Notes under the pieces: model-generated
Seen by the model: the letters and a program-made list of their open reading frames with translations, nothing else
What the model was told of the DNA's origin: nothing
The model's database searches: none
Position numbers and translations under genes: made by a program
Shown: in pieces, positions 1,203 through 49,650 of the stretch
How positions within the stretch are numbered: position 1 is the first letter of the stretch
Layout of the letters: each line of letters begins with the position of its first letter
Assembly (NCBI RefSeq): GCF_900115825.1
Contig: NZ_FOXW01000001.1
Coordinates: 124,001 to 188,000, forward strand
From: Desemzia incerta
Lineage (GTDB): Bacteria; Bacillota; Bacilli; Lactobacillales; Carnobacteriaceae
Length of the DNA stretch: 64,000 bases
Reading direction: 5' to 3'

Positions 1203-1612
1203 AGAGAGCAGAACAAAGCGCTCAGAATACTGGATATAAGAAGGAATAGCCTCGTTGATGTTTTTTATCAATCGGGCTATTTCGGCTTATAGACATGTAG
1301 TCTGCTTTGTGCAGCTCGTTTAAGAGCAGAACAAAGCTTTTTGCTGATCGATTTAAAAAGAGTCTTGATTATTGGGTAGATGACCCAATAATCAAGACAC
1401 TTTTTGTGTTGTAGATTTGGAAAACGGACTTGTGGAGAGAAAATTATCTCGTTTAAGTCGGGAAAGTTAAACAAACCTAACTTATGAGAGTTAGAAAGCT
1501 GCAGTCAAGTCAAGTAAACCTAGTTTAGCTGACTTAAGAGCTTTAAGTTACACTCGACAAGGCACCTTTCTAAGTTATTCATCCAAAACTGAAAAGTCGT
1601 AAAAATGAACAT
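1203..1612. other. Intergenic region with a direct repeat and a terminator
   Basis: No convincing gene. A 15-bp direct repeat (AGAGCAGAACAAAGC) occurs at 1205-1219 and 1323-1337, and the perfect-stem terminator at 1355-1405 follows. A 65-codon minus-strand frame (1277-1474) runs through the hairpin and lacks a ribosome site, so I do not call it. A longer-distance inverted pair (TTAGAAAG near 1490, CTTTCTAA near 1567) is weak. Confidence 0.5.
1355..1405. terminator. Bidirectional intrinsic terminator after the helicase
   Basis: The arms GTCTTGATTATTGGGT (1362-1377) and its exact complement (1383-1398) form a 16-bp stem with a 5-nt loop. Beyond one A:A mismatch, AAAAAG pairs with CTTTTT, giving a T-run in both directions. 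Confidence 0.85.
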
Positions 1613-17356: not shown

Positions 17357-18147
17357 TAGAAAAACCTCCTTTGTACATCAAATGGTAGACCTATTCTCTA
17401 GTAGAATAGGGATGTTTCATCTATAGTATACTATTTTTTCAATTATTAACCAACCACTGCTAAAGCGTTTTGAGTAGGAGTAGTAAGGAAAAGTGGGGGT
17501 CTACTTAACAAGTTAGAGTGAAAAAGATGCAGGGATGTCAAGTAGAAGGGGTCTACTTGAGAAGTTGAAGTAAAAAAGGTGTTGGGATGTCAAGTAGAAG
17601 GGGTCTACTTAACAAGTTAGAGTGAAAAAGATGCAGAGATATCAAGTAGAAGGGGCCTACTTAACAAGTTAGAGTGAAAAAGGTGCTGTGATATCAAGTA
17701 GAAGGGGTCTACTTAACAAGTTAGAGTGAAAAAGATGCTGTGATATCAAGTAGACGGTGTCTACTTGATAAGTTGAAGTAAAAAAGGTGTTGGAATGTCA
17801 AGTAGACGGTGTCTATTTGATAAATTGAAGTAAAAAAGGTGCTGTGATATCAAGTAGAAGGTGTCTATTTGATAAGTTGAAGTAAAAAGATGCTGTGATA
17901 TCAAGTAGAAGGGGTCTACTTAACAAGTTAAAGTAAAAAAGATACAGGGATATCAAGTAGAAGGAGTCTACTTGATAAGCAGCAGCTAAAACAGTGTGGA
18001 GTTGGTGTTTAGCAGCAGAATACTCCACCAATAAGAATGTTACACCAGCTAAGGAATGATTTAGCTGTATCTCCAGTTCGGTTTGTTTAACAATTATTTT
18101 TCATGTAGTATAGGTTGAAAGAAATCTAATAATAAGAGGTGCGAAAA
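17357..18147. other. 791-bp divergent intergenic region
   Basis: Most of it (17490-17990) is the ten-unit palindromic tandem array. The flanks hold the leader of the HesB-like pair and, at 17985-18130, unremarkable AT-rich sequence before the GNAT gene. A 72-codon minus-strand frame over the array (17813-18031) is repeat translation, not a gene. Confidence 0.6.
17490..17990. repeat. Ten-unit 52-bp palindromic tandem array
   Basis: The core CTACTT/CTATTT starts at 17501, 17553, 17605, 17657, 17709, 17761, 17813, 17865, 17916 and 17968. The period is 52 bp with one 51-bp step. Each unit contains a palindrome with arms ATCAAGTAGA and TCTACTTGAT around a ~5-nt loop (AGGGG or CGGTG). Then comes ~26 bp of conserved spacer (AAGTTGAAGTAAAAAAGGTG type). 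Two spacer subtypes interleave (TTAGAGTG and TTGAAGTA). Confidence 0.95.
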
Positions 18148-19827: not shown

Positions 19828-21183
19828 ATGGAAATCACAAACATAGTCGAAACGGTTCGCATGATTGAAGAAGAAAATTTGGATATTCGTACAATAACGA
19901 TGGGGATTTCATTATTGGATTGCATTGATGCAGACGGAGAAAAAGCTCGTCAAAAAATCTACGATAAAATCACCACCAAAGCAAAAAATTTGGTGAAAGT
20001 AGGAGAAGAAATCGAAATGGAATATGGAGTTCCGATCATCAACAAACGGATCTCAGTCACTCCTATTTCACTCATCGCGGGGGCTTCATCTGACAGCGAT
20101 TATGTTGCGTATGCTAAAACCCTTGATGCAGCAGCAAAAGAAGTAGGCGTCAACTTTATCGGCGGATTTTCAGCGTTGGTTGAAAAAGGCTATCATAAAG
20201 GAGATGAAATTTTACTTCGCTCTATCCCAAGAGCCTTAGCAGAAACAGAAAGAGTTTGTTCTTCTGTTAATATTGGTTCTACGAAAGCCGGAATCAATAT
20301 GGATGCAGTGCGAGATATGGGAGAGATCATTAAAGAAACGGCTGAATTGACTGAGGATACTCAAGGATTAGGTTGTGCAAAACTAGTCGTTTTTGCTAAT
20401 TCAGTAGATGATAATCCATTTATGGCCGGCGCTTATCATGGAGTTGGAGAAGCTGATTGTGTAGTAAGTGTCGGAATCAGCGGACCGGGCGTTGTAAAGA
20501 AAGCTTTGGAGAAAGTAAAAGGGGAACCATTCGATATTTTGGCTGAAACAGTGAAGAAAACAGCTTTTAAAATTACAAGAATGGGGCAATTGGTAGGGCA
20601 AGTAGTTTCTGAACGATTGAATGTTCCATTTGGTATCGTGGACTTGTCTTTAGCGCCTACACCTGCAATAGGAGATTCTGTTGGTCGTATTTTAGAAGAA
20701 ATGGGACTGGAGAGAGTAGGAACTCATGGGACAACAGCTGCTTTAGCGTTGTTGAACGATGCGGTGAAAAAAGGCGGCGTGATGGCTTGTGGTCATGTAG
20801 GCGGTCTGTCGGGAGCTTTCATTCCTGTCTCAGAAGATGAAGGGATGATTGAAGCGGTAGAGATCGGTGCTTTGAACATCGAAAAATTAGAAGCTATGAC
20901 CGCTATTTGTTCCGTTGGATTAGACATGGTAGCTGTACCAGGAGAAACTTCAGCCACTACGATATCTGCTATCATTGCAGACGAGGCAGCTATTGGAGTT
21001 TCTAATCATAAAACGACAGCTGTGCGTATTATCCCAGCACCAGGAACAAAAGTAGGAGACCGAGTTGAACTAGGCGGACTATTAGGAACAGCCCCAGTAA
21101 TGGCCGTAAACCCATTCGGATCAGAAGACTTCATCCAAAGAGGCGGAAGAATCCCAGCACCACTACACTCATTCAAAAATTAG
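19828..21183 (+). CDS. UPF0210 (PFL-family, DUF711) protein
   Basis: 451 residues, full length for UPF0210. It is structurally related to the pyruvate-formate-lyase barrel but is not a functional PFL; I see no glycyl-radical RVSGY-type motif at the C-terminus. Conserved Gly-rich blocks ([48 protein letters not shown]) point to a nucleotide- or phosphate-binding enzyme of unknown reaction. Second gene of a two-gene operon with the ACT protein; AAAGGAG ribosome site. An elaborate terminator follows at 21185-21298. Confidence 0.9.
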
Positions 21184-21184
21184 A

Positions 21185-21298
21185 GCGCTAAAAAAAGCGT
21201 TTAGCTCACCGAACAAAATCACTTTAAGGATTGTTAGGTTCTTTCTACCTAACATCCTTAAAGTGATTTTGGCAGTGTGAGTTGCTTTTTTTTAGCGC
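21185..21298 (+). terminator. Large two-tier terminator hairpin after UPF0210
   Basis: An inner ~25-bp stem (21214-21239 with 21247-21271) is nested within outer arms GCGCTAAAAAAAGC (21185-21198) and GCTTTTTTTTAGCGC (21284-21298). The whole is far larger than a typical intrinsic terminator. Confidence 0.85.
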
Positions 21299-21352
21299 GT
21301 TTAAGACCAAGAGCGTGGAGAAAAACGTTTTGGCTTTAAACGACAAACCCAT

Positions 21353-21391
21353 AAAAAGACAGCTTACCCGATAAGGATAAGCTGCCTTTTT
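21353..21391 (-). terminator. Terminator of the YvrJ gene
   Basis: CAGCTTA (21360-21366) pairs with TAAGCTG (21378-21384); the minus strand ends in TTTTT. It lies 17 bp after the yvrJ stop codon. Confidence 0.82.
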
Positions 21392-21407
21392 GCTTAGAAA
21401 CAAGTGA

Positions 21408-23159: not shown

Positions 23160-24230
23160 ATGTTAAGGGTTGGTTTAATCGGATTAGGAGAAGTTTCGGG
23201 TGTACATGTAAATGCAATCAATGCTAGTGAATGTGGAGAGCTGGTTGCCGTATGTGATAGTGATCCGGATAGAAAAAGCGAATGGACGGAGTTTCCTTTT
23301 TTCAGCGATATGGAATCGATGCTGCAAAAGATGAAACTGGATGTCGTACACATCTGTCTGCCGCATTATTTGCATCAGTCGGCAACGGAATTGTGTGTGA
23401 AATACGGAGCTCATGTTTATTTAGAGAAACCTATTGCTATCAACTACGAGGAGTCTTTAAAACAGCTCGAATTAGCTGAAAGTACAGATCGTAAAATATG
23501 TGTGAGCTTCCAAAACCGCTACAATAAAAGCTTTATGAAGCTAGTTGAAATCCTTCAAAACGAAGATGTTGGTGAAATCACTTCTATTAAAGGATTAGTC
23601 ACTTGGTTCAGACCAGAAAGCTACTACACTTCTAAGCCATGGCGCGGACGAAAAGCAGAAGCTGGATATGGATCTATCATCAATCAGTCGATTCATACAC
23701 TGGACTTGATTCAACTCATTGGCGGCAAATTAGAGAGCTGCAAGGCTACTTTATCTAACTTGACGGACTACGATATTGAAGTAGAGGACACAGCTAGTGC
23801 GACATTCACGTTCCAATCAGGCGTGAAAGCTTTCTTTCATGCAACCAATGCCTATACAGAAAATTCGTCCGTCGAATTGCAAGTCATTACAGAAAAAGAA
23901 AAATTTACGATCAAAGACAGCCGTTTATACTTTACGAATGAAAATGGAAGAAAAGAAGTCATCGAAGAAGACGACCGGATTCCAGGATCGAAATTCTATT
24001 ATGGAATGGGACACCGAATCTTGATAGAGCGATTCTATAGAAGTATTTTAAATCATACAGAAGACTATGTTCATATCAGAGAAGTTGTTCCTTCAATGGA
24101 AATGATTGAAATGATGGACCGTTCTTCTAAAGATATGGGAAACGCACAACGCGTGAAAAGAGAGGAGCTTTTACATGGCACAACAAGTAAAAATCGGAGC
24201 ACAAGGGTATACGCTGAAGAAACAATTTAG
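23160..24230 (+). CDS. Gfo/Idh/MocA-family oxidoreductase (second of operon)
   Basis: 356 residues. Rossmann loop GLIGLGEVSGVHVNAI, catalytic motif LEKPIAINYEE and INQSIHTLDLIQLIGG place it in the same family as its neighbours; similarity is in the motifs rather than close identity. AAGGAGCG precedes the ATG. Its last 56 bases overlap the start of the isomerase gene in another frame, and the C-terminal ~18 residues (TSKNRSTRVYAEETI) are encoded inside that overlap. It is translationally coupled to the isomerase. Confidence 0.86.
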   Translation: MLRVGLIGLGEVSGVHVNAINASECGELVAVCDSDPDRKSEWTEFPFFSDMESMLQKMKLDVVHICLPHYLHQSATELCVKYGAHVYLEKPIAINYEESLKQLELAESTDRKICVSFQNRYNKSFMKLVEILQNEDVGEITSIKGLVTWFRPESYYTSKPWRGRKAEAGYGSIINQSIHTLDLIQLIGGKLESCKATLSNLTDYDIEVEDTASATFTFQSGVKAFFHATNAYTENSSVELQVITEKEKFTIKDSRLYFTNENGRKEVIEEDDRIPGSKFYYGMGHRILIERFYRSILNHTEDYVHIREVVPSMEMIEMMDRSSKDMGNAQRVKREELLHGTTSKNRSTRVYAEETI

Positions 24231-25041
24231 CGAACTAGGCCCTTATGAAACGTTAAAAAGAGTAAGTGAGTTAGGCTATAATGCAGTGGAAATTTCTCAA
24301 GTAGAAATGACTCCGGAAAATGTAGCAGAAATCAAACGAGCTTCAAAAGAATTCGATATGGAGATCGCTTCTTTATCAGCAGGATTAAAACCTATGATGG
24401 AAGGACAAGAATCATTGTCTACTCATTTAGACAAGATCATTGAAGACTGCAAGACATTGAATACAGATATTGTCCGTATCGGTATGCTGCCGTTTGAAGC
24501 GATGGCTTCATTGGATAAAGTAGTAGAATTTTGTCATGAAGCAAATGCAGTAGCAGAAAAGATGAAAGAACACGGCATCAAATTATACTACCACAACCAC
24601 CACATAGAATTTGTTAAATACGATGGACGCTATTTATTGGATATCATTCGCGATGAAGCTCCATTGTTGGGCTTTGAATTAGATGTTCACTGGGTGCAGC
24701 GTGGAGGACGCAATCCTGTAGAAGTATTGAAAGAATATGCTGGGAAAGTGGACTTGGTTCATTTGAAAGATTACCGAATCGTTCCAGTTCCTCAAGAAGC
24801 AGTAGATGAGTTATTGAAAGGCAATGGAGGAGACTTCATGAATGCATTCACTAACAATATCCAATTTGCTGAATTAGGACAAGGAACATTGGACTTGCCA
24901 GCGATCATCGAACAAAGTATCGCCAGTGGAGCTCGTTATTTGCTGGTAGAACAAGACGAGCAGTATGGACGCGATCCGTTTGATTGTTTAGCAGATTCTT
25001 GCGACTATTTAAAAGAAGCAGGATATGCAGACTTATTTTAA
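24175..25041 (+). CDS. Sugar phosphate isomerase/epimerase (AP-endonuclease-2-like TIM barrel)
   Basis: 288 residues, xylose-isomerase-like TIM barrel. Metal-ligand motifs are visible: YYHNHHIEFVKYDG (His/Glu), GFELDVHWVQRGG (Asp/His), VHLKDY (His/Asp) and LLVEQDEQYG (final Glu). Enzymes of this family isomerise or epimerise keto-sugars or cyclitol ketones, often next to Gfo/Idh/MocA dehydrogenases as here. GAGAGGAG precedes the ATG, which lies inside the previous gene. Downstream is the 165-bp hairpin element before the next dehydrogenase. Confidence 0.87.
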   Translation: MAQQVKIGAQGYTLKKQFSELGPYETLKRVSELGYNAVEISQVEMTPENVAEIKRASKEFDMEIASLSAGLKPMMEGQESLSTHLDKIIEDCKTLNTDIVRIGMLPFEAMASLDKVVEFCHEANAVAEKMKEHGIKLYYHNHHIEFVKYDGRYLLDIIRDEAPLLGFELDVHWVQRGGRNPVEVLKEYAGKVDLVHLKDYRIVPVPQEAVDELLKGNGGDFMNAFTNNIQFAELGQGTLDLPAIIEQSIASGARYLLVEQDEQYGRDPFDCLADSCDYLKEAGYADLF

Positions 25042-25068
25042 TCATTCAAAAACACATAGAGGAGAAGC

Positions 25069-25233
25069 TGGAAAATAATTTTCATATGTTGCATATTTAC
25101 GAGTAGTGGATTCGTAAACGTGCTCAAAAAGGCAGCCCCGACGACCATCCACGAATCATGCTCGGGTGGTCGATGACCATCCGAGCATGATTCGTGGATG
25201 GTCATGGGGCTAAGCGCCTTTTTTCCCACTCTC
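25069..25233 (+). repeat. Dispersed intercistronic hairpin element, copy 1
   Basis: A ~165-bp element with two structured parts. A small dyad TTTACGA / TCGTAAA (25096-25102, 25112-25118) comes first. A very long hairpin from AAAAAGGC (25126) to GCCTTTTTT (25224) follows, closed at a GAT loop (25172-25174), nearly fully paired apart from small bulges and ending in a T-run. A second copy lies at 36222-36384. It sits inside an operon, between the isomerase and the third dehydrogenase. Confidence 0.9.
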
Positions 25234-25276
25234 CTCTTTTATATTGATGAAGAACGAAAGAAGGGAAGACGAAATT

Positions 25277-26359
25277 ATGGCTAATAATGATGGAATGAAT
25301 CATGCTCCAAAAGGAAAAGTAAATAGAGTTGTAAAAGAAGGCGAATTCAATTTTGCGGTAGCGGCTTTAGATCATGGGCACATTAATGGGATGACTAACG
25401 GACTACTTGAAGCAGGTGCTACTTTAAAATGGGTATACGATCCAGATGCAGAGAAAGTGGCTGCTTATAGAGAACAATTTCCGCAAGCACAAGTAGCGCA
25501 ATCATTGGAACAAATTTTAGAAGATTCAGATATTCATTTGGTAGCAGCAGCGGCTATTCCAAATAAACGTAGTGAACTTGGAAACCAAGTGATGAAAGCC
25601 GGAAAAGACTATTTTACCGATAAAACAGCGTTTACGACTTTGGATCAATTAGAAGAAACCAAACGTGTCGTTGCTGAAACGGGACAAAAATTCTGGATCT
25701 ATTTCAGTGAAAGATTGCACGTAGAAGGTGCTGTATTTGCTGGTCAATTGATCAAAGATGGTGCTATTGGAGAGGTGATCCAAGTAACTGGATTTGGTCC
25801 GCACCGCTTAGTCAAAGAAAAACGTCCAGATTAGTTCTTCAATAAAGAACAATACGGCGGTATTCTATGCGATATCGGCAGTCACCAAATCGAACAATTC
25901 TTATACTTTAGCGGAAATGAAGATGCAGAAATACTGCACAGTAAAGTTGGTAATTACGCAAACCCTGACACTCCAGAATTAGAAGATTATGGGGACGCTA
26001 CGCTGATCGGAGCGAATGGAGCTACATTTACCTTTAAAGTAGATTGGTTCACTCCAGACGGCTTGAATACCTGGGGAGATGGACGTGTGTTCATTACCGG
26101 GACAAAAGGGACAATTGAGGTCCGCAAATATATTGATGTGGCGCGTGAAGAAACAGGAGATCATTTATACTTGGTAACAGCTGAAGGAGAAAAGCATTAC
26201 TCTTTAGCTGGAGAAGTAGGATTCCCATTCTTTGGTGAAATGATTAAAGACTGCATCAATCGTACGGAACATGCAATGACTCAAGAACACATCTTTAAAG
26301 CACAAGAACTTTGCTTAAAAGCTCAAGAACAAGCTATGGTTATCCAATCTAGCATATAA
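25277..26359 (+). pseudogene. Gfo/Idh/MocA-family oxidoreductase interrupted by an in-frame TAG
   Basis: From the ATG at 25277 (AAGGGAAG upstream) the frame runs 185 codons to TAG at 25832-25834. It then continues in the same frame, without frameshift, for 174 more residues to 26359. The joined product is a 360-position Gfo/Idh/MocA protein. The N-terminal part has the Rossmann domain and DKTAFTTLDQ (the Lys motif); the C-terminal part has GGILCDIGSHQIEQFLYF. Flanking residues read KEKRPD-stop-FFNKEQYGG, where homologues usually have Trp, so a single TGG to TAG change is the simplest explanation. Nothing else is degraded, so the change is recent, suppressed, or a sequencing error. Confidence 0.88.
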
Positions 26360-34908: not shown

Positions 34909-36186
34909 ATGAAAAAAGTATTGTTGTCTACTTTATTAGTAGGTTCGCTATTTTTAGCAGCTTGTGGAAACGGTTCTGGCGGAGGAAATGCCAATGAAAC
35001 TGAAGATGGTAAAGTGCAAATCACTTTCTTGAACGGCTTCACGGGCGGTGATGGTGGTTACATGAAGAAAATCACGGATGGGTTCAACGAGTCTCAAGAT
35101 GAATACCTGGTAGAAGAAGTACAAGATAAAGACCATTACACAAAATTTAAAACAGGAGATTATGATTTAGTGGTGATCCATGCCAACAACCTTGAAACAT
35201 ATAAGCAAGATGGCATGATCCAAGATATCAATCCATTGATGGAACAAGCCGGATTAAGTATTGGTGACTTTCATGAAGCTGCAGAAAATCTAGTGACTTT
35301 TGATGATGGTACCTATGGTATTCCATTAGACATTCATCCGTTAACCGCATTTTATAACAAACAATTGTCTCCAGAAGCTCCTGAAAACTATGAAGACTTG
35401 GTAGCTTTGACGGAAGAATTGCAAAGTCAAGATCCTAACTTGTATGCAGCAGGAGTCCCTAACGCCGGACTAGTAGAATATTACATTATGACAGCTGCTA
35501 TTCAAAACAACATTGAGCTGCTTGATGGGAATCATTTGAACTTTGCTCAAGAAGAATTAGCTGATGCTTTAATGGTTTACCACGACATGGTTTGGAAAGA
35601 TAATATCTCGCCAGCTGGATTAGGATTAGATGGTGAATTCCAAGCCTTCATGAAACAAGTAGAAGAAGGAAATACCGGTGTTCAAACAGCGGTAGCTCTT
35701 ACAGGACCATGGTACTATCAAGCTGTTTCAGAAACATATGGTGAAGATCTTGGTATCACTTCTATGCCTCAAATTGGAGATGAACCTGGAGTATATGGAG
35801 GATCTCACACGATTGCTTTGCCATCCTCTGTAACGGATGAAAAAGAGATGGAGGCTATTTCAGCATTCGTTGAATACATGTATCAGCCAGAAAACTTAGC
35901 AAATTGGGCAGAGTCTGGACAAGCTCCGCTGCACACAGCAACGTTGGACTTGATTGCAGAAGACCCAGAAAAATATCCTTTAGCGAATGAAAATGCTAAA
36001 CAATTCGATACAGTGACTGGTGCTCCTCAAGTTTATCAATTTGGAGAACAAATGAGATACATGATTGAAAATGTGTTTAGTATGTTGGTGACGGAAGAAA
36101 ACTTGACGAAGGAAGATTTGATGGCTGAACTGCAAATCGCCACAGATAACGCGCAGCAAATTGCCGATACCGCTCCTGAACAGTAA
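34909..36186 (+). CDS. Carbohydrate ABC transporter solute-binding lipoprotein
   Basis: 425 residues. Lipoprotein signal peptide with lipobox LAAC (Cys19), then a Gly-rich linker and an extracellular solute-binding protein family 1 domain (GYMKKITDGFNESQDEYLVE, GPWYYQAVSE). It delivers an oligosaccharide to the permeases at 36406 and 37298. ATAGGAGGATAAG precedes the ATG. The hairpin element at 36222-36384 separates it from the permease genes, a typical place to set a binding-protein excess over permease. Confidence 0.9.
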   Translation: MKKVLLSTLLVGSLFLAACGNGSGGGNANETEDGKVQITFLNGFTGGDGGYMKKITDGFNESQDEYLVEEVQDKDHYTKFKTGDYDLVVIHANNLETYKQDGMIQDINPLMEQAGLSIGDFHEAAENLVTFDDGTYGIPLDIHPLTAFYNKQLSPEAPENYEDLVALTEELQSQDPNLYAAGVPNAGLVEYYIMTAAIQNNIELLDGNHLNFAQEELADALMVYHDMVWKDNISPAGLGLDGEFQAFMKQVEEGNTGVQTAVALTGPWYYQAVSETYGEDLGITSMPQIGDEPGVYGGSHTIALPSSVTDEKEMEAISAFVEYMYQPENLANWAESGQAPLHTATLDLIAEDPEKYPLANENAKQFDTVTGAPQVYQFGEQMRYMIENVFSMLVTEENLTKEDLMAELQIATDNAQQIADTAPEQ

Positions 36187-36221
36187 TTTAAACTAAATCT
36201 ATGCATTACATTATTTGGGAT

Positions 36222-36384
36222 TGGAAACTCTCTTTCAGAGTTGCAGATTTACGAATATTGGATGCGTAAACGTGCGCAAAAAGGCAGCCTCGACGTCCAT
36301 TCACGAGTCACGCTCGGGTGGTTGATGACCATCCGAGCATGATTCATGGATGAATAGGAGGCTAATCGCCTTTTTCCCACTCTC
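36222..36384 (+). repeat. Dispersed intercistronic hairpin element, copy 2
   Basis: Homologous to 25069-25233, roughly 85-90% identical by eye over the last ~137 bp. It has the same small dyad (TTTACGAATATTGGATGCGTAAA region, 36248-36270). The long hairpin runs from AAAAAGGC (36278) to GCCTTTTT (36375) with the GGTTGATGACC loop region. Several substitutions keep pairing as G:U. It lies between the binding-protein and permease genes, 22 bp before the permease ATG. Confidence 0.9.
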
Positions 36385-36405
36385 AAATGTAAAAGGAGGA
36401 TTCAA

Positions 36406-37284
36406 ATGAAGATTTCTAAAATATGGTCAACAGTGATGTATTTGCCTTTTTTTATTTGTTTTGTCCTGTTCTGGGCTATACCGGTTTTCTACGGTATTTA
36501 TATTAGTCTTCATGAGTGGTCTCTCTTTGGAGGAAACGGCGGTTTTGTCGGTTTAGAAAACTATATAACTGTGCTGTCTGGAGATAATATGTTCAGTGTT
36601 TCTTTTTATAGAGGCTTAGAAAATACATTAGTGTTTGTAGGGTTCAGTGTGATCCCATTAGTATTGGTCAGTTTAGGGCTGGCTTTATTAGTAAATAATA
36701 TTCCAAAGAAACTAAAAGTTTTTTTCAGAACAACCTTTTTTATTTCCTATGCTGTTTCTGTAACAGCCGTATCAGCTATTTTTAAATGGTTGTTCACTGG
36801 AAACGGAGGATACATCAATAATGTTTTGAATACGCTCAATATTGCTCCTTTGAACTGGCTGAATGAACAACCGTATGCTTGGATAACGATTTTGATCGCT
36901 ACAGTTTGGTGGACGATCGGATACAATATGATCTTATTTATCAATGCTTTAGACGAAGTGGATTACAATTTATATGAAGCAGCAGGGCTGGATGGGGCCA
37001 ATTGGTGGAAAAAATTTCGCTATGTTACCTTCCCCTCTATAAAAGGTGTTTTTATCTTTGTGCTGATGACGACAATCATTGCTTCATTCAACCTCTACGG
37101 ACAAACATTGCTGATTACTGCAGGCGGACCGCAGCAAAGTACACAATCACTTATCATGGTCATCCAACAAGTGGTCTTTTCTCAAAATAATCTAGGCATC
37201 GGTACGACTATGGCAGTTATTATGGGAGTTATCATGATGGTGATAACAGGTGCACAATACTGGTATGCCTACAGAAAAGACTAG
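36406..37284 (+). CDS. Sugar ABC transporter permease 1
   Basis: 292 residues, six predicted membrane segments. The cytoplasmic loop motif EAAGLDGANWWKKFRYVTFPSIKG (EAA motif) docks the ATPase. MalF/UgpA-like. AGGAGGATTC precedes the ATG. It lies 13 bp upstream of the second permease. No ATP-binding subunit is encoded in the operon, so a shared MsmX/MsmK-type ATPase is presumably used. Confidence 0.93.
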   Translation: MKISKIWSTVMYLPFFICFVLFWAIPVFYGIYISLHEWSLFGGNGGFVGLENYITVLSGDNMFSVSFYRGLENTLVFVGFSVIPLVLVSLGLALLVNNIPKKLKVFFRTTFFISYAVSVTAVSAIFKWLFTGNGGYINNVLNTLNIAPLNWLNEQPYAWITILIATVWWTIGYNMILFINALDEVDYNLYEAAGLDGANWWKKFRYVTFPSIKGVFIFVLMTTIIASFNLYGQTLLITAGGPQQSTQSLIMVIQQVVFSQNNLGIGTTMAVIMGVIMMVITGAQYWYAYRKD

Positions 37285-39317: not shown

Positions 39318-39660
39318 GGTTAGGGGTTCTACTTGATAAGTAGGCTCAAAAAATGAGTCAGGATGATAAGTAGACAGGTTCTACTTGATAAGTGGGCACA
39401 AAAAACGGGTCAGGATCTCAAGTAGACAGGTTCTACTTGATAAGCAGGCACAAAAAACGAGTCAAGATCTCAAGTAGACGGGTTCTACTTGATAAGTAAG
39501 TACAAAAAATGGGTCAGGATGATAAGTAGACAGGTTCTACTTGATAAGTGGTCACAAAAAATGGGTCAGGATGATAAGTAGACAGGCTCTATTTGATAAG
39601 CCGACACAAAAAACGAGGTAGGATATCAAGTAGACAGGTTTTTACTCGATAATTAACGAA
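39318..39660. repeat. Seven-unit 52-bp palindromic tandem array (same family as 17490-17990)
   Basis: The core CTACTT starts at 39329, 39381, 39433, 39485, 39537 and 39589 (CTATTT), and a degraded TTACTC follows at ~39641. Every step is 52 bp. The palindrome AAGTAGACAGG-TTCTACTT matches the other array. The ~25-bp spacer (GTGGGCACAAAAAATGGGTC type) is different, so the arrays diverged in the spacers while keeping palindrome and period. Confidence 0.94.
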
Positions 39661-39670
39661 AAACAACAAA

Positions 39671-49499: not shown

Positions 49500-49650
49500 T
49501 GTTTTCGGCCATGGTGATCAAAGATGATGTGCTCATGGCCGATAAAAAATGAGTTTGGGCCATAAGCGCGGTTTTATAGTAGCTGATGGCAGAAATACAG
49601 ACAATAGTCGGCCATGAGGGTGAACACCCAGCTGCTCATGGCCGGACTTT
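49500..49650. repeat. Three-unit ~52-bp palindromic array, different palindrome
   Basis: GGCCAT starts at 49507, 49558 and 49610 and the mate ATGGC at 49535, 49586 and 49638, so the period is 51-52 bp. Best copies: CGGCCATG...CATGGCCG (49506-49541) and CGGCCATGAG...CTCATGGCCG (49609-49644). The middle copy is degraded. GC content is higher than the surroundings. Confidence 0.85.

Follow-up and report, generated by a model that had tools for sequence, protein, structure and literature searches.

A palindromic repeat, probably mobile and of the EFAR kind, at gene ends in Desemzia incerta and other Lactobacillales

Two intercistronic hairpins in the Desemzia incerta window (the whole stretch of 64,000 nt that was analysed) are probably copies of a MITE-like repeat of the EFAR kind, a mobile, palindromic DNA element that is non-autonomous and lands in terminator hairpins. 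The family to which they belong comprises hairpins about 119 nt long whose ends are conserved; these hairpins carry a 4-nt bulge, their outer stem shows strong covariation, and their arms are largely unrelated in sequence. Since the relative G005 carries 12 copies that are 95–100% identical and have different flanks, the element moves. Its mobility had been suggested by an earlier sequence-only reading and is borne out by these copies, by nine full copies in the D. incerta genome and by relatives in which the corresponding sites lack an intact copy.

Window copies and their anatomy

The sequence-only reading had placed the element at 25069–25233 (copy 1) and a homologous copy at 36222–36384 (copy 2). 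Both were found there, with a common 139-nt core (25088–25226 and 36240–36378) that is 86% identical by a repeat search of the window; however, judged by the flanking inverted repeats, the element begins slightly further left, and the window holds two more, divergent members (Table 1). The inverted repeat around copy 1 may represent the remains of a target hairpin stem. With −105.8 kcal/mol for copy 1 (shuffles averaging −48.9, z −13.5) and −78.9 for copy 2 (shuffles averaging −45.9, z −8.1), both folds lie well beyond chance; none of 200 shuffles was as good in either case, and copy 1 folded as single-stranded DNA is likewise beyond chance (z −11.8). The near-perfect hairpin of about 45 bp described for copy 1 was recovered as 44 pairs, namely 29 uninterrupted and 15 outer ones with the 4-nt bulge, and the T-run as T6 in copy 1 and T5 in copy 2.

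Table 1. Coordinates of the element copies, their parts and the adjacent genes in the window (R1, R2 and A2 as described in the text)
Feature	Position	Strand	Basis and remarks
Copy 1, whole element	25058..25237	+	flanked by inverted repeat AGAGGAG (25058-25064) / CTCCTCT (25231-25237)
Copy 1, decayed first stem-loop (SLS1)	25064..25090	+	comparison of copies
Copy 1, small hairpin TTTACGA...TCGTAAA	25096..25118	+	sequence and R1 structure; overlaps AAACG box (25116-25120)
Copy 1, conserved long hairpin (SLS2), AAACG box to CACTCT	25116..25232	+	R2 80.1 bits, E 5.7e-18 (sequence belongs to training set A2); fold; bulge AAGC at 25212-25215; A5 and T6 tracts
Copy 2, whole element	36206..36392	+	flanked by inverted repeat TTACATT (36206-36212) / AATGTAA (36386-36392)
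Copy 2, long hairpin (SLS2)	36268..36383	+	R2 56.3 bits, E 4.6e-12 (outside A2); fold
Gene 5' of copy 1, xylose-isomerase-like TIM barrel (PF01261)	24175..25041	+
Gene 3' of copy 1, Gfo/Idh/MocA oxidoreductase (PF01408, first 185 aa)	25277..26343	+	end approximate, from G001 alignment
Gene 5' of copy 2, ABC solute-binding protein (PF13416)	34909..36186	+
Gene 3' of copy 2, ABC permease (PF00528)	36406..37284	+
Third member, divergent arms	21182..21302	-	R2 85.5 bits, E 2.6e-19 (sequence in A2)
Fourth member, divergent arms	1203..1321	-	R2 81.7 bits, E 2.2e-18 (outside A2)

All neighbours of copies 1 and 2 are co-directional, and their domain matches agree with the earlier placement of copy 1 between isomerase and dehydrogenase genes and of copy 2 within an ABC-transporter operon. 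Because an A5 tract and a T6 or T5 tract bracket the strong stems, termination in either direction from these copies is plausible, and within an operon such a hairpin might also block exonucleases that attack from the 3' end. The anatomy of both copies would thus accommodate the earlier proposal of partial termination or 3' protection. A simple consensus terminator scan of the window, which counts at most 20 pairs, listed neither copy, and Rfam gave no match at the gathering score in the window. The oxidoreductase frame that follows copy 1 is interrupted by an in-frame TAG at 25832–25834 but otherwise stays open to about 26343.

Searched by BLAST with copy 1, the D. incerta genome (2.33 Mb in 19 contigs) yielded 15 matches, comprising nine full copies, four reverse self-matches of the palindromes and two short pieces. 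The covariance model built from the nine full copies (R1) returned 32 matches at E ≤1 in this genome, of which the top nine were the same full copies and the rest divergent members, reverse matches and fragments. The order within the element is SLS1, a short hairpin, the AAACG box and the long hairpin SLS2. SLS1, a small terminator-like hairpin at the left with forms of GGAGCTGGGAAATAACTCCCAGCTCC, is intact by eye in six of the nine copies, decayed in window copies 1 and 2 and missing in L005, while SLS2 has AARGC-AG in its left arm and CT-bulge-GCYTT in its right arm. Terminal inverted repeats are 17/17 identical in the G074 element, which has AGAGGTTGTGACAAAAG at both ends, and imperfect by eye in the other copies compared. 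According to a crude ORF caller, the nine copies of the D. incerta genome lie between convergent (four), co-directional (four) and divergent genes (one, L006), and eight of the 12 G005 copies lie between convergent genes, six of them with both neighbours no more than 27 nt away. As a general rule, the regulatory cassette inside operons that the sequence-only reading had envisaged is thus not upheld.

The wider family and its distribution

A DNA pattern for both ends, run on the GTDB species collection, found at least 117 stretches, and 80 loci were taken. Their record titles name Loigolactobacillus, Secundilactobacillus, Agrilactobacillus, Levilactobacillus, Lapidilactobacillus, Paucilactobacillus, Lacticaseibacillus, Trichococcus, Jeotgalibaca, Desemzia, Aerococcus and an uncultured Lactobacillus, all of which we take to belong to Lactobacillales. 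Among the named loci compared, the interior arms closest by eye to those of the window copies are found in Jeotgalibaca caeni and Trichococcus palustris. A first family pattern matched 0 of 55 loci, and relaxed forms were then used. The alignment A2 consists of 56 SLS2 sequences picked for diversity (36 named and 20 from further genomes), four of 40 diverse named rows and two of 22 regex rows having been left out, and served to train the covariance model of the family (R2).

The outermost pairs, GNGY/RCNC, covary: the exact partner is present in 65 of 88 named hits, as against 28.5 on average and 37 at most after shuffling. Across the 16 outer pairs of A2, 94.8% of the cells are paired and covariation reaches 0.546 compared with 0.145 after shuffling (0 of 500 shuffles as high), and outer pairing falls to 34–51% when the partner is shifted by 1–3 columns. 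Several outer-pair columns are fixed by the search patterns; the pairs 13–121, 14–120 and 23–108 to 25–106, free in both patterns, covary strongly, as does the pair 6–128, free in the named rows. Pairwise identity in A2 averages 0.77 at the ends and 0.36 in the interior, against 0.25 in the shuffled interior. The bulge reads AAAC, AACC, GAAC, GACC or AAGC in all 56 rows, most of which was demanded by the patterns. A run of five T follows the stem in 12 rows; since the other 44 of 56 lack it, termination is not a family-wide property.

An RNA-level constraint acting on the + strand alone should favour G-T over A-C mismatches. In the 16 outer pairs, 843 Watson-Crick cells were counted along with only 6 G-T and 25 A-C cells, which points to a constraint at the DNA level or on both strands. 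The tally for all 28 pairs, inner ones included, is 1337, 52 and 65, respectively, leaving by difference 46 G-T and 40 A-C cells for the inner pairs, where the alignment is less sure and the balance is neutral.

After setting apart 13 named hits placed 'inside' an ORF by the crude caller and 10 at locus edges, the neighbours of the remaining 65 of 88 were arranged, in element orientation, as -- in 27, +- in 20, ++ in 10 and -+ in 8. An ORF of at least 120 codons ends near the right end in 41 of the 88 named hits (47 are without one), and in 20 of these 41 the stop codon starts 1–4 nt before the element, that is, overlapping it, touching it or 1 nt away; the stop codon uses the first two bases of the element in eight of the 20. 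Both divergent window members show the same closeness: the right end of the third overlaps the TAG stop (21181–21183) of the gene at 19828–21183, and the fourth starts directly after the TAA at 1200–1202. So, other subfamilies abut stop codons without terminator replacement. A hairpin with a T-run persists just beyond the third member (about 21360–21392, by eye), which replacement of the terminator leaves unexplained.

Of the sampled genomes, R2 matches 96 of 295 in the order, covering 39 of 74 genera, and 29 of 398 in the class, among which 25 fall outside the order; both scans give lower bounds, as strict filters were applied and at most 12 and 9 candidates, respectively, were scored per genome. 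The case of no further copies, named by the sequence-only reading as part of a refutation, is excluded by the nine full copies found here and the 12 in G005. Those class-scan matches that cover only model positions 6–115 or less lack the end boxes and may represent a related but different repeat; others, such as L343–L347, have the AAACG box, a right end that is similar and a stretch resembling the bulge. R1 matches 12 of 18 genomes and four of six genera in the family to which the window's genome belongs. R2 also matches six of 10 genomes in the genus of G026, which we infer to be of the Enterococcaceae from plasmid matches named Enterococcus.

With the G074 element, BLAST in distant mode matched 119 plasmid records, 97 of them named Enterococcus, and 169 phage records, of which 147 bear the name Listeria and 22 the name Enterococcus. 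The 30 phage-database matches listed are all Listeria-named unannotated contigs of 1.7–24 kb and may be host DNA. Unlike the distant mode, megablast of the same element against phages gave no match. R2 matches six of seven Enterococcus, Lactiplantibacillus and 'Listeria phage' records tested (E ≤2.4e-8; L333 was missed), its 36 named training rows containing no Enterococcus, Lactiplantibacillus or Listeria. No match was obtained by BLAST of a window copy or the L. fuyuanensis copy against plasmids, or of the G000 copy against phages, and the L. backii copy matched two L. curvatus records. The plasmid record CP069369.1, labelled Klebsiella pneumoniae, contains an Enterococcus-type copy at 75% identity, possibly through contamination or mislabelling. 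Five R2 matches spaced about 115 nt apart form a tandem array of the element or a relative at G020:C1:1615342-1615916. A further copy in G074 (L301 1-3117) is located between genes that appear, as read from the ORFs, to encode a substrate-binding protein and an ABC ATPase, the same kind of place as that of window copy 2.

Recent movement and target sites

The G005 copies are 172 nt long by the end pattern. Four longer ones were measured at 225 nt (n = 3) and 290 nt (n = 1), with one or two extra hairpin modules, and 53-nt insertions in one arm are tolerated. At site A of this genome, three of the four sister genomes have a plain hairpin with A- and T-tracts and the fourth, G008, a truncated element; at site B, all four have a plain hairpin with A- and T-tracts; and at site C, a longer AT-rich hairpin is present in both genomes compared (G006 and G009, of the four). 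The gap at the site of window copy 1 is 235 nt in the window and 73 nt in G001, where it contains a simple hairpin (−16.9 kcal/mol) with a T-tract, which suggests that this place was probably terminator-like before the insertion. These comparisons are between species, not strains, and gain at the compared sites is more probable than loss from the sister lines. For copy 2, 57 of 59 genomes lacked a match to the adjacent permease at E 1e-60, and the one hit outside its own genome, at 42%, was set aside. A plasmid search for a strain-level empty site returned only the own record for the E. faecium site, and no clean empty partner among 40 of 170 matches listed for the L. plantarum site.

In 16 G005 copies, A makes up 70% of the left flank and T 70% of the right flank. 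Complementarity of the left and right flanks beyond that expected from composition is weakly supported (p 0.0085 for run length and p 0.35 for pair count). Target-site duplications, a check named in the sequence-only reading, were absent in 15 of these 16 copies and one had a 4-nt direct repeat; summed over all 16, direct repeats came to 4 against a permuted mean of 5.2 (p 0.80). An autonomous partner, with such ends on either side of a gene, was not evident among the matches listed for five genomes. A near-identical G005 copy (L258 8880-14162) lies a few hundred bases from an rRNA-operon-like multi-copy region, which has many 95–96% matches in sister genomes.

Mode of insertion, alternatives and related repeats

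A full copy would consist of SLS1 as the left end, the AAACG box, SLS2 with its 4-nt bulge and a right end resembling the inverted left end. It would be moved by an enzyme, probably via a folded DNA strand. The comparison between species suggests that young copies enter the stem-loop of an intrinsic terminator close to the end of a gene, most of the old terminator hairpin being lost upon insertion. Bracketed by A- and T-tracts, the hairpin of the element would then become the new gene-end structure, and insertion would be cheap because that structure is replaced. In both window operons, the hairpin would most likely pass some transcripts and protect the 3' end of the upstream mRNA, and for copy 2 the binding protein would be favoured over the permeases; intercistronic hairpins of ABC operons are the model here. 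The position of L006 between divergent genes, shared by eight of the 65 assessable named hits, speaks against this explanation, and so do the stop-codon contacts of many divergent members.

A vertically kept structured RNA, either a cis-regulatory element or an sRNA whose RNA fold would be under selection at these operons, is a very improbable alternative: the strong folds, the covariation, the intercistronic position of both window copies and the similar G-T and A-C counts of the less surely aligned inner pairs would suit it, but the outer stem has fewer G-T than A-C cells, the copies adjoin various and often convergent genes, Rfam recognised nothing in the window, and the 12 near-identical copies in one genome point to transposition. 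A purely RNA-level element was rejected, being largely refuted by near-identical copies at many unrelated sites, and so was a tRNA-derived repeat, as the window contains no tRNA. Somewhat less improbable, though still not favoured, is that simple terminators were amplified or converted within the genome without any transposition system. Such a process would explain why the sites coincide with terminators in relatives, palindromes can duplicate during replication, and adjacent copies do occur; it accounts poorly for dispersed copies with identical sharp ends at 12 places, for the inverted-repeat ends and for related copies on plasmids.

The possibility that the element is a folded-DNA recombination site, addressed by shape and not by sequence, in the manner of integron attC sites or IS200/IS605 ends, deserves more weight, although we regard it as rather unlikely. 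It is compatible with the mobile-repeat explanation, of which it is a bolder form. The conserved end boxes and bulge, the near-constant length and the little sequence shared by the interior arms argue for it (length and bulge being partly fixed by the search patterns), as does the right end lying at stop codons in 20 of 41 assessable cases; on the other hand, no integrase or HUH transposase was linked to the element in this analysis, and the 53-nt arm insertions in G005 are tolerated. More tentatively than for the mobile repeat as such, a system active across Lactobacillales and other Bacilli might recognise the element by the shape of folded single-strand DNA, settle mainly at gene 3' ends and have reshaped terminators in much of the order. 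End boxes, 4-nt bulge and arm length would then be kept and the arm sequence would be replaceable.

EFAR repeats of enterococci, reportedly described by De Gregorio in 2009, are said to be mostly about 170 bp long and modular in length, with targets that fold as stem-loops and a target stem that is partly lost. To our knowledge, this kind of repeat has been known only from enterococci, and a literature search, with most subscription journals beyond its reach, recognised no description of the family outside them. The window copies are provisionally assigned to the EFAR kind by close likeness in these described features. The modular length has its counterpart in the 172-, 225- and 290-nt forms of G005, and the partly lost stem-loop target in four sites here, compared at the species level. 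Enterococcus copies share ends and shape with the window copies, but not the arm sequence.

The type I Efa-1 element of E. faecalis has 163 nt and two adjacent stem-loops (Petrillo, 2008, PMC2267715). Two adjacent stem-loops within about 160–180 nt are likewise found in G005 (172 nt), G074 and the Enterococcus copies, whereas window copies 1 and 2 have the first stem-loop in decayed form. A 2013 paper names EFAR among enterococcal MITEs and lists RUP, NEMIS, ERIC and Bcr1 as bacterial MITEs (PMC3733652); Correia elements, RUP, ERIC and others are covered in a review of small mobile sequences (PMC2229807). Like these MITEs, the element is short, non-coding, hairpin-forming, situated near genes and provided with terminal inverted repeats; it differs by the general lack of target-site duplication (15 of 16), by its location at terminator hairpins and by the AAACG box and 4-nt bulge. 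REP/RAYT systems are similar as extragenic palindromes near genes (PMC3733652). REP palindromes measure 20–40 nt and carry a GTAG or CGTC tag, with a RAYT gene belonging to the system; the unit here is about 119 nt. An A-tract, a stem and a T-tract make window copies 1 and 2 and the G005 element resemble intrinsic terminators, from which the element differs as a dispersed mobile repeat mostly without a T-run (missing in 44 of 56 aligned rows). With the integron attC site, which is marked by R' and R'' boxes and a neighbouring integron integrase, the likeness noted is one of shape.

If the explanation is right, a kind of repeat that reaches 39 of the 74 sampled genera of the order rewrites gene 3' ends, including those in gaps within transporter and sugar-metabolism operons. 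The natural pairs with and without the element offer a way to measure the effect of a terminator swap. A question thereby raised is which enzyme moves a DNA hairpin with its shape kept and its sequence not.

The window contains other repeats as well. A 37-nt stretch with the ends TCGGCCATG...CATGGCCG occurs twice, at 49505–49541 and 49608–49644, the two being 70% alike. Moreover, two arrays of 52-nt direct repeats with CTACTT...AAGTAG motifs are present at 17444–18095 (about nine copies) and 39324–39664 (about six copies), some 21 kb apart.
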